The translations under genes and the position numbers were made by a program. DNA of 55,586 nucleotides, taken from positions 1-55,586 of IMG/VR virus record IMGVR_UViG_3300046674_000306; one strand, 5' to 3'. This DNA is from a virus. Within the stretch, counting starts at the first letter, position 1. Every line of letters begins with the position of its first letter. Below the pieces are notes generated by a model. That model saw only the letters and a list, made by a program, of their open reading frames with translations, made no database searches and was not told the DNA's origin. Positions 9,838 to 33,426 of this stretch are shown piece after piece.

Positions 9838-9909
9838 TGGAGCGGAGACCCGGAATCGAACCGGGCTTGCCTGCTTGGAAGGCAGGACCTTCTCCTTGAA
9901 GACCCCCGC
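9838..9909 (-). tRNA. tRNA-Gly (UCC), compact D-arm, CCA encoded
   Basis: On the minus strand this gives acceptor GCGGGGG/UCUCCGC (two G-U pairs), anticodon arm CCUGC-CUUCCAA-GCAGG with anticodon UCC, T-arm CCCGG-UUCGAUU-CCGGG and an encoded CCA (9838-9840). The D-arm is shortened to CUUC-AAGGA-GAAG with a 5-nt loop, which may alter tertiary pairing. It sits 7 nt after the end of the 218-aa gene in the same direction. It would read GGA/GGG glycine codons. It is probably functional, but a decoy or decayed gene is possible because of the small D-loop. Confidence 0.85.
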
Positions 9910-9916
9910 GTATTCT

Positions 9917-31428: not shown

Positions 31429-31684
31429 CCAAGTGCCGTATTGGCCAGCAGCGATGGACCAGAAATCTGCCGCAGCATATTGCGGCGTCTGTGTCGAGAC
31501 CTTCAAGAAGGTTTGTCCGGTTCGTCCACTGAAATTCACACAATCCACAAGGGGAGAGCGTTATCTTCGCCAGCGTCTCGACGAATGGCTGGTTTCGATC
31601 GATCCCAACACGCAAAGTGCCGCACCAAGAAAAAGCTTGGCGGAGCGGCTTTATGGTGGTCACGTTGAAAATCACAGGGCTTAA
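31412..31684 (+). CDS. xis: Excisionase-like (Xis/AlpA) DNA-binding protein
   Basis: A 90-aa protein with a winged-helix pattern: DQKSAAAYCGVCVETFKKVC (about residues 16-35), then RYLRQRLDEWLVS, as in AlpA/Xis-type recombination directionality factors. It overlaps the start of the integrase gene by 32 nt, the normal xis-int arrangement. Start is ATG 31412 or 31418. Confidence 0.8.
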   Translation: MIMRSDQVPYWPAAMDQKSAAAYCGVCVETFKKVCPVRPLKFTQSTRGERYLRQRLDEWLVSIDPNTQSAAPRKSLAERLYGGHVENHRA

Positions 31685-32750
31685 CATCGTCAACGCTCGC
31701 GGCAAGCTATACGTCTACGCCCGCGATACCGGAGAGCGCCTGTACGGGCCATACGAGGGCACCAAGCCCGATCTCAAGCGGTTGCTGGCTGATGACAAGG
31801 ATTTCATCGCCAAGTGGAACGCTCGACGCAGACCGGAAATCAAACGCACCTATGAACCTGGAACGCTTGGCGATCTGGTGCGATGGTTCGAGAACGAATG
31901 CCCGAAATACAAAAAGCTATCTGTCGCGACCAAGAAGGATTATACCGCCGCTTTCCAGCACTTGCGCGGGTTATTCGATGCCAAACTTGAGGAATTCGAT
32001 ACCGCCGAACTATACGATCTGCGCGATAAATGCGCGATGGAGAAATGGCCGCGCTTTGCCGACAAGATGATTTCCGCCCTTTCGTCCATGTTTGGGCAAG
32101 GCGTGAAGCGCAAGAAGCTGCGGTCTAACCCGGCGCGAGGTATCGACAAAGCCCACACCTCGGACAAGAACGCGAATCGGGAATGGATAGCGGGTGAGTT
32201 CGAAGCCGCTATTGCTGACGCCCCAGCCAATCTAAAAACCATTATGATGATTGCTAGACACGCCGGCTTTCGAGGACAGACGATCGCCGCGCTCACCTGG
32301 CGGGAATATCAAGCTGACGTTTCGTATGGGAAGTGCTTCCGCGTCGTCACAAGGAAGAACAACGAGGTAGTTTGGGTGCCCGCCGCTGTCGAGCTTCAGA
32401 CGCACCTGGACGAGATCAAGGCAAACGCGACGACGATAGCCACGCACATCACGACACGAGCCGACGGGACGCCTTGGGAGAACGAGGTGCAGATGCAGAC
32501 TGAGATCAGCCATTATCTGCGGGACTTGGAAGGTAAGGGGAAGATTGGTGCTGGAACGACCCTGCATGGGCTGCGGGTTACGTATGCCGCCGACCTTAAA
32601 CGGTCTGGGGCGGATACGGGAGACATTGCCGCAGCACTAGGCGACAAGTCGGAAAGAATGGGTGCTCACTATACCCGGCATGTTGAAAACGAGGCGAAGG
32701 TTATAAGGGCTTTTGCCGGGAAAAGGTCGCGGGCCAAGAACGGTGAGTGA
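31653..32750 (+). CDS. int: Tyrosine integrase
   Basis: A 365-aa tyrosine recombinase. ATG 31653 has GGAGCGG upstream. N-terminal arm-binding and core-binding (SAM-like) domains are followed by the catalytic domain with Arg in ARHAGFRGQTIAAL, the H-x-x-R block LHGLRVTYA and the nucleophile Tyr in GAHYTRHV (about residue 340). It catalyses integration at attP, which lies directly downstream and includes a tRNA-Leu half. C-terminal residues are basic. Confidence 0.95.
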   Translation: MVVTLKITGLNIVNARGKLYVYARDTGERLYGPYEGTKPDLKRLLADDKDFIAKWNARRRPEIKRTYEPGTLGDLVRWFENECPKYKKLSVATKKDYTAAFQHLRGLFDAKLEEFDTAELYDLRDKCAMEKWPRFADKMISALSSMFGQGVKRKKLRSNPARGIDKAHTSDKNANREWIAGEFEAAIADAPANLKTIMMIARHAGFRGQTIAALTWREYQADVSYGKCFRVVTRKNNEVVWVPAAVELQTHLDEIKANATTIATHITTRADGTPWENEVQMQTEISHYLRDLEGKGKIGAGTTLHGLRVTYAADLKRSGADTGDIAAALGDKSERMGAHYTRHVENEAKVIRAFAGKRSRAKNGE

Positions 32751-32754
32751 ACAG

Positions 32755-32962
32755 GTTTTGCAAAACACGAGGGATTGTTTTGCAAACTCCGACTTGACGG
32801 AATCGCCTAAGTGGTTGATTTGAAGGGGATGCGGACGTGGCGAAACTGGTAGACGCAAGGGACTTAAAATGCCTTGCAAAGCCCATAGAATATGGATTCT
32901 TGCCGCAAAACATCTCTAAATTTTCGACTAAATACCATGGAACATAATGAGATTTGCAAAAC
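32755..32962 (+). other. attP: Phage attachment site (attP) with tRNA-Leu 5' half
   Basis: Immediately after int, 32831-32870 match the 5' half of a bacterial tRNA-Leu (UAA): GCGGACG acceptor strand, D-arm, and anticodon loop CTTAAAA; similarity stops at the anticodon 3' stem. Repeats of TTTTGCAAA(A)C flank it: 32755-32766 (palindromic GTTTTGCAAAAC), 32777-32787 and 32952-32962, candidate integrase arm sites. The core is probably at the anticodon loop of a host tRNA-Leu gene. Carrying the 5' rather than the 3' half means the integrated tRNA would have phage DNA upstream. Confidence 0.75.
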
Positions 32963-33100
32963 AATTTCAGTGCGAATTTTGAACCGTGCGTGTTGCAATA
33001 TGCAACGTGGCATGCGATAGGTGATTTGCCAATCGTGGTGAAAGCAACGGCTACTTCTTTGAAACAAGCCAACCGTTGCTGCTTGTTCCCGAATGGTTTG

Positions 33101-33250
33101 AAACAGCAGGCGTGGCGTAGAGTTCGGGTACTTCGCTTTGGGAGCCGTAGGTCGCAGGTTCAAATCCTGTCTCCCCGGGCAATCCGGGGAGTGGCGCAGT
33201 CTGGTAGCGCGACGTCACGTTCCGAGTTCGATTGTTCCCGCCTGCTGTTT
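33101..33250 (+). ncRNA. Y RNA-like RNA 1 with permuted tRNA-Pro domain
   Basis: The ends pair in a perfect 12-bp stem (33101-33112, AAACAGCAGGCG, with 33239-33250). A second stem follows (5' GAGTTCGGGTAC with 3' GTTCCGAGTTC), the likely Ro60-binding helix. Inside is a tRNA in circularly permuted order: anticodon arm with TTTGGGA, T-arm GCAGG-TTCAAAT-CCTGT (33154-33170), acceptor stem closed into a hairpin CTCCCCGG/CCGGGGAG by GCAAT (33171-33191), then D-arm GCGC-N9-GCGC (33194-33210). The sequences are those of tRNA-Pro (UGG), permuted at about position 26. TTTT follows the terminal stem. Identified as a Y RNA from architecture and the adjacent Ro60 gene. Confidence 0.85.
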
Positions 33251-33263
33251 TATTCCGTTTGGG

Positions 33264-33426
33264 TGAAAGTCATTTGGTGGATCGGTGCCGAAGATGTCGG
33301 TTACTTCCATGCTAAGGACGGGGTCGGTGGTTCGAATCCACCTGTCCAACTTCGGTTGGATGTAGCTCAGGGGTAGAGCACGTAATATCCGGTGTCGCTT
33401 GTTGCCCGGTCCTCCAAATGACTTTC
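33264..33426 (+). ncRNA. Y RNA-like RNA 2 with permuted tRNA domain
   Basis: The ends pair over 13 bp (33265-33277, GAAAGTCATTTGG, with 33414-33426). The permuted tRNA-like core has an anticodon-like arm, T-arm GGTGG-TTCGAAT-CCACC (33326-33342), acceptor hairpin GTCCAAC-TTCG-GTTGGAT (33344-33361, UUCG tetraloop), and D-arm GCTC-N7-GAGC (33365-33379). Flanking 5' and 3' strands share motifs with RNA 1 (5' TCGG-n-TACTTC; 3' TCCG ... TCG-n-TTGTT), presumably the Ro60 site. The parent tRNA is unclear. It ends 20 nt before the Ro60 start codon. Confidence 0.83.

Follow-up and report, generated by a model that had tools for sequence, protein, structure and literature searches.

A phage-encoded Y RNA with the arms of a circularly permuted tRNA-Pro(UGG), anticodon arm included

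Results

A permuted tRNA-Pro(UGG) core in a Y RNA upstream of a phage Rsr gene

Upstream of an Rsr (Ro60/TROVE) gene in a virus record we identified a Y RNA (hereafter, Y1) whose core has the order of a circularly permuted tRNA-Pro(UGG), and we are highly confident of this structural identity. From 5' to 3', Y1 reads Y stem, anticodon loop TTTGGGA, variable region, T-arm, 3' acceptor strand, loop, 5' acceptor strand, D-arm and Y stem (Table 1). The explanation we favor is that Y1 is a phage Y RNA carrying a complete permuted tRNA and acting as an Rsr-linked tether or decoy. Taken whole we consider it likely, a judgment that blends the high confidence in the structure with an evenly balanced view of a general tether or decoy role and marked doubt about a role specific to the anticodon.

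The window (the whole 55.6-kb stretch of the virus record that was analyzed) contains Y1, a second such RNA (Y2) and the Rsr gene, together with genes for an integrase, portal and terminase, the recombination proteins ERF and YqaJ, and NinB, and its source looks like a temperate phage. The Rsr gene starts ~195 bp downstream of Y1, the TROVE neighborhood expected of a bacterial Y RNA, in agreement with the first-pass annotation, which had called this locus a Y RNA. Y1 also has the long end-to-end stem of bacterial Y RNAs, of which 12 pairs were tested (4 outer and 8 inner), and the YrlA-type permuted core of T-arm, looped acceptor and D-arm. A promoter and terminator scan revealed nothing above chance, i.e., no strong promoter, one promoter-like site against 0.6 expected, and no terminators. 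Directly after the integrase gene, a 47-nt segment (32831-32877, + strand) resembles the 5' half of tRNA-Leu(UAA) (38/47 against a Mesorhizobium gene) and is a likely attachment site. The window further encodes a phage-borne tRNA-Gly(TCC) with an odd D-arm (9838-9911, - strand; 39.2 bits).

Table 1 Features of the Y RNA locus, with positions in the window.
Feature	Position	Strand	Details
Integrase gene	31617-32750		
Probable third, minimal Y RNA	33028..33096	+	Y-stem hairpin with CTACTTC and CTTGTTCCC motifs, without a tRNA core; spotted by eye in comparison with L002 and L003, then folded
Y1, permuted tRNA-Pro(UGG) core within a long Y stem	33101..33252	+	Covariance model R1 33109-33255, 123.5 bits (Y1 is a training member); Rfam YrlA 48 bits
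Y1 outer Y stem, 5' strand AAACAGCAGGCG	33101..33112	+	Pairs with 33239-33250; 4 outer pairs tested, 100% of cells paired in 23 relatives
Y1 inner Y stem, 5' strand	33120..33127	+	Pairs with 33222-33229; 92.9% of cells paired in 23 relatives
Y1 conserved junction (G)TACTTC, Y stem to anticodon hairpin	33128..33134	+	T21 A22 C23 and T25 C26 invariant in alignment A1
Y1 upper anticodon stem and loop	33135..33145	+	nt 30-31 (GC), TTTGGGA with anticodon UGG, nt 39-40 (GC)
Y1 nt 41-43 (CGT)	33146..33148	+	Partner of nt 27-29 at 33212-33214; 28:42 in 35/37 and 27:43 in 36/37 relatives
Y1 variable region, nt 44-48 (AGGTC)	33149..33153	+	
Y1 T-arm	33154..33170	+	5/5 pairs; same sequence in the tRNA-Pro(tgg) of several genomes
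Y1 acceptor stem	33171..33191	+	3' strand 33171-33177, cap loop 33178-33184, 5' strand 33185-33191; without CCA
Y1 D-arm, Pro-type GCGCAGTCTGGTAGCGC	33194..33210	+	No difference from the D-arm of tRNA-Pro(tgg) in L040 and some others
Y1 nt 27-29 (ACG), 5' strand of lower anticodon stem	33212..33214	+	Covariation
Y1 Y stem, 3' strands	33222..33250	+	Inner 33222-33229, outer 33239-33250; T-rich end after
Y2, second permuted tRNA core	33265..33426	+	Anticodon loop ATGCTAA; composite stem 5/5; R1 108.8 bits (training member)
Rsr gene (Ro60/TROVE and VWA domain), 433 aa	33446..34747	+	PF05731 E 1.4e-11, VWA_2 E 2.6e-6

The Y1 core closely resembles tRNA-Pro(UGG)

In native linear order, no tRNA was called by ARAGORN upstream of the Rsr gene. 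The reading of the core as a circularly permuted tRNA-Pro(UGG), proposed at first pass, depended on how a tRNA scanner would treat the rotated sequence, and ARAGORN called rotated Y1 as tRNA-Pro(tgg). Rotated Y1 was also searched against 289 genomes of the class to which a Mesorhizobium relative belongs. It matched over its full 73 nt with up to 89% identity (96.9 bits), had matches in 266 of the genomes at E <= 0.001, and all ten of its best database loci were tRNA-Pro(tgg) genes. With the break corrected as described below, the best match to an alphaproteobacterial tRNA-Pro(UGG) was 65/73, short of the "exact" permutation originally claimed, with differences at tRNA positions 9, 16, 26, 27, 29, 41, 43 and 44. 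Outside positions 26-44 the identity was 52/54, and the differences in the anticodon stem were paired changes.

A loose scan for permuted T-acceptor-D cores scored Y1 at 28.25 and Y2 at 28.3, and 200 dinucleotide shuffles of the 55.6-kb window gave 0.005 hits per shuffle at a score of at least 28. At its free-energy minimum, Y1 folds the anticodon region into another small hairpin, and this fold is 1 kcal/mol lower than the one in which the 7-nt anticodon loop (33137-33143) is enforced. At the other end of the core, the acceptor is a 7-bp stem closed by GGCAATC; the loop GCAAT of the first description holds if an eighth G-C pair is counted.

Covariation supports a composite anticodon stem

The break in the cloverleaf lies between nt 29 and 30, inside the anticodon stem, and not at about position 26 as initially placed. 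In Y1, A27 C28 G29 (ACG, 33212-33214) pair with C41 G42 U43 (CGT, 33146-33148), and G30 C31 (GC, 33135-33136) pair with G39 C40 (GC, 33144-33145), giving 5/5 pairs. The stem had been regarded as decayed when a simple hairpin, with 3/5 pairs, was assumed. Three closer relatives (L139, L140 and L141) share with Y1 the exact segment TTCGC-TTTGGGA-GCCGT, and the stem is therefore unlike a decaying one.

We profiled these pairs in 37 related RNAs, selected as rows with AC[ATC]TC 20-23 nt before a five-pair T-stem and with a scored acceptor/D core (40 rows, three of which lacked five 5' letters and were dropped); L019, L023, L046, L138 and L142 were omitted as repeats or near-repeats. Pair 27:43 was formed in 36/37 and 28:42 in 35/37 (all Watson-Crick in both cases, and of four types in the latter), 30:40 in 36/37 and 31:39 in 34/37, and none of 5000 shuffles, which ignore sequence relatedness, reached the counts of these four pairs. 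Pair 29:41 formed with the linker nt 29 in 22/37, and when nt 29 was allowed from either side, 32 of the 37 RNAs had five of five pairs. U33 was present in 35/37 and a purine at position 37 in 36/37, in a register that was partly picked with those letters in view (a bonus was given for T33); a by-eye count in the fixed-register set A2 found T33 in 17/20. Together, the covarying anticodon stem and the near-constant U33 and purine 37 do not support the earlier suggestion that only the shape of the elbow and acceptor is under selection.

For a 33-pair structure in 23 full RNAs, 96.0% of cells were paired against 67.3% in shuffles that ignore relatedness (0/500 reached the observed value), and both-side changes were seen in 28 of the 33 pairs. 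All six slid controls, which retain relatedness, had <50% of cells paired. Alignment A1 comprises 23 of 25 references (one L039 RNA and the L052 RNA were omitted) and includes both RNAs of the window. We at first backed a simple anticodon hairpin whose 5' strand would hold nt 27-31 in full, and then dropped it; its 28:42 pair, taken with the 5'-side nt 28, formed in 25/37 RNAs against a shuffled mean of 25.7. It was replaced because nt 27-28 on the 5' side show no covariation while the linker covaries. Given these aligned sequences, covariation supports a composite stem in which nt 27-29 follow the D-arm and nt 30-31 precede the loop.

Permuted tRNA cores in related phage Y RNAs

ARAGORN called none of the 37 related Y RNAs as a tRNA in native order and 36/37 once they were rotated by one rule with ACCA added, against a mean of 9.25/37 when the 5' halves were swapped among them. 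A total of 19 different anticodons were represented. The sources were phage contigs, named phages of Xanthomonas, Caulobacter and others, and a few bacterial contigs. Because rotation turns 36/37 into ARAGORN tRNAs, the permutation is a trait of the family and not an event private to the Y1 locus.

The first-pass annotation had seen in Y1 a direct evolutionary origin for one Y RNA. That the Y1 core is unusually close to one real tRNA agrees with this; however, Y RNAs throughout the Rsr-linked family, and those of the YrlA class as well, have their tRNA parts in permuted order, and the permutation is therefore older than Y1.

The covariance model R1, built from 23 RNAs and searched on 64 sources that include those 23, also found RNAs outside its training set, in L136 (133.5 bits), L139 (126.5), L141 (115.1) and L140 (110.6). 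In the 289 bacterial genomes, R1 had matches in 147 at E <= 1e-5 and only 3 above 70 bits. Just below that score (about 62-48 bits, among the matches listed), many genome matches are confined to model positions 27-103, its tRNA-like part, and by analogy we take these for tandem tRNA genes. R1 missed the probable minimal Y RNA of the window, whose like also lies upstream of rsr in L002 and L003.

Five tandem Y RNAs precede rsr in two Xanthomonas phages (L043:1850-2500 and L136:1820-2500). One of the five has a T-arm in phage Olaya and is a bare hairpin in 10KY502B. GenBank annotations of tRNA-Thr, tRNA-Gln and tRNA-Ser lie over Y RNAs (L043:2331-2398, L045:1628-1695 and L044:2266-2340) and look like wrong calls, and the permuted Y RNA family accounts for such likely erroneous tRNA calls in phage records.

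Origin and turnover of the Y1 core

That the core of the Y1 lineage is Pro-derived is probable, as part of the joint judgment on the favored explanation. The L139, L140 and L141 RNAs, whose neighboring Rsr proteins are 68, 80 and 64% identical to that of the window, carry the segment shared with Y1; Pro-type D-loops occur in L139 and L140, and the GGCAATC cap is common to L015 and L141. The segment with the D-loops, and likewise the cap, agree with descent from an earlier, Pro-like Y RNA, as judged from these sequences.

The same evidence speaks against a different history, in which the Y1 core was pasted in, i.e., an existing Y RNA received a new tRNA module, by replacement or overwriting, from host tRNA-Pro sequence such as that of tandem tRNA genes. 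We give this history some weight, as a possibility that we do not favor. The Y stem and anticodon loop of L003 are almost those of Y1, but its acceptor and D-arm differ. Comparison of the Xanthomonas phages 10KY502B and Olaya, whose rsr DNA is 97% identical, showed that the core of one Y RNA differs within near-identical flanks: the anticodon TGT becomes GTT, one T-stem pair is flipped, the acceptor is replaced and the D-loop is changed. Such a change of core between close phages, with the Y stem kept, fits diversifying selection or recombination, and the phage of the window encodes ERF and YqaJ. Tandem tRNA genes, which score as YrlA, are perhaps the donors of cores. Because cores are replaced between close phages, a later re-copying of the Y1 core is as possible as an old Pro lineage.

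We consider it very improbable that the likeness to tRNA-Pro reflects merely the general tRNA consensus of every such Y RNA. Against 41 Mesorhizobium tRNAs, Y1 scored 0.84 and was no outlier, performing no better than the L004, L015 or L035 RNAs, which match other isotypes, and loop and body isotypes agree weakly across 17 relatives. Because Y1 is ordinary against the Mesorhizobium tRNAs alone, the assignment to Pro depends on the wider search. There, among the four Y RNAs tested in the 289 genomes, Y1 alone matched over its whole length, acceptor included (96.9 bits); under an earlier rotation rule, Y2 reached 81.5 bits (nt 7-63; nearest to tRNA-Thr(GGU)), L003 77.0 bits (nt 3-69) and L004 70.7 bits (nt 4-69). 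Moreover, the D-arm, T-arm, acceptor and anticodon loop of Y1 all name the same isoacceptor. The general proposal that each Y RNA derives from the tRNA named by its loop was rejected, as the trend is weak and concerns 17/31 rows, the other 14 being without a loop match of at least 6/7 in the library.

Y1 is unlikely to be a working permuted tRNA gene

Y1 has its 3' half before its 5' half and, once rotated, a full cloverleaf with a 5/5 anticodon stem and tRNA-Pro identity. A genuine circularly permuted tRNA gene, of the kind found in some algae and archaea, would show these features too; its transcript would be cleaved both in the acceptor loop and where the Y stem meets the core, and ligation would then give a functional tRNA-Pro(UGG). 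We regard this reading of Y1 as very unlikely. CCA is not encoded and the acceptor is capped by 7 nt, although CCA could be added after cleavage; Y2 likewise has a capped acceptor without CCA. Tight caps are found in many relatives (4 nt in 16/62 cores, often GNRA- or UUCG-like), whereas a vestigial NCCA lies in the right place after the acceptor in 7/62 permuted cores of the loose set, including that of CcrColossus, a frequency above 1 in 64 that comes from few lineages. The splicing endonuclease is not known from bacteria. A bulge-helix-bulge was not found at the Y1 junction, a 7 x 7 internal loop that differs from the 3-nt bulge-helix-bulge given for permuted tRNA genes in the available text of PMC3978253. 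Nor does a permuted gene explain why a long Y stem is conserved or why an Rsr gene lies alongside. The loop-capped acceptor without CCA therefore makes a functional permuted tRNA gene, and thus a working tRNA gene at Y1, unlikely. In two Caulobacter phage Y RNAs (L045:1671 and L046:1674), ACCA follows the acceptor strand and a spacer of ~30 nt precedes the 5' acceptor strand; this arrangement may be left over from an origin in tandem tRNA genes.

Discussion

Proposed role of Y1

If expressed, Y1 would be expected to bind the Rsr (Ro60) encoded just downstream. In its architecture, a short loop connects the two acceptor strands, and the long Y stem interrupts the anticodon stem on its 5' side, between nt 29 and 30, which leaves the cloverleaf with all four of its arms, the anticodon loop included. 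Y1 would thus present the outside of an unchargeable tRNA-Pro(UGG) on the Ro60 ring and might be modified as tRNAs are. Its most likely use would be to tether or occupy proteins that read the tRNA body and anticodon loop, i.e., modification enzymes, PNPase-type nucleases and host-defense anticodon nucleases. Whether by tethering or as a decoy, a role of this general kind appears about as probable as its absence; a decoy specific to the anticodon is doubtful.

In its most specific and tentative form, the proposal is that phage Ro60 particles might display whole, uncharged permuted tRNAs with swappable anticodons, each core baiting one host anticodon nuclease or tRNA enzyme. On this view, a conflict over tRNA in which the cores serve as decoys or bait could explain why they diversify between close phages, and Y1 would take the place of tRNA-Pro(UGG). 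Permuted Y RNAs also offer a model for the permutation of a tRNA and its re-use as a scaffold.

Comparison with known systems

YrlA (RF02553; Salmonella structure 6CU1) is likewise Rsr-linked and has a Y stem with a permuted T-arm, looped acceptor and D-arm, and 6CU1 superposes on tRNAs with a circular permutation according to the available part of the ARTEMIS paper (PMC11472068). The Rfam YrlA model matched Y1 over its full length (1-114) with 48.0 bits (E 1.3e-9), which is under the curated cut-off of 69 bits. With the same model, pairs of ordinary tandem tRNA genes reach as much as 42.8 bits (L118, L119, L122, L124, L126 and L128-L131), because neighbors read as 3' half, spacer and 5' half. 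Such pairs often account for the weak YrlA matches in genomes, and sub-threshold YrlA matches thus call for a tandem-tRNA check.

Y1 differs from YrlA in having a whole anticodon arm and a break within the anticodon stem. The Rfam YrlA consensus has the permuted T-acceptor-D core and a helix like the lower anticodon stem, without an anticodon hairpin. In the available text of a review (PMC8394870), the mimicry of bacterial Y RNAs is limited to the D, T and acceptor arms. A literature search, the original YrlA papers (Chen 2014; Wang 2018) aside, found an anticodon arm in such RNAs nowhere described in the text available. The arm is not a clean divider between the RNAs of the window type and YrlA, a use that was ruled out: the YrlA-like L114 has an anticodon-like arm and L113 has none. 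Descriptions of bacterial Y RNAs present them as partial mimics of tRNA that lack the anticodon arm; a widespread, mostly phage-borne subclass with a complete, covarying anticodon arm and many anticodons alters the possible binding partners.

DusA and TruB modify YrlA (PMC8394870, in the text available). The discussion in PMC7790460, as far as its available text goes, suggests the tRNA-like domain of YrlA as a competitive inhibitor of an anticodon nuclease, and the same text reports that Salmonella YrlA is not cleaved by anticodon nuclease. By analogy, an RNA with a full anticodon arm that cannot be charged may be a better candidate for such inhibition, and the idea becomes directly testable.

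With tRNA-Pro(UGG) itself, Y1 shares the sequence identity given above after rotation and has all four stems paired, and it differs in order, in the absent CCA end and in the Y stem inserted at 29/30. As in the permuted tRNA genes of algae and archaea, the 3' half of Y1 precedes the 5' half; those genes have a bulge-helix-bulge and yield a mature tRNA (PMC3978253, available text), whereas Y1 has a capped acceptor, no CCA and a Y stem in the junction. A functional parallel may be the Deinococcus Y RNA of the RYPER complex (Rsr-Y RNA-PNPase), in which Rsr and the Y RNA tether PNPase: as the available text of PMC8394870 describes it, the Y stem is bound by Rsr and the other end tethers the effector. 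Y1 differs at this effector end, which is a full tRNA mimic with a putative partner.
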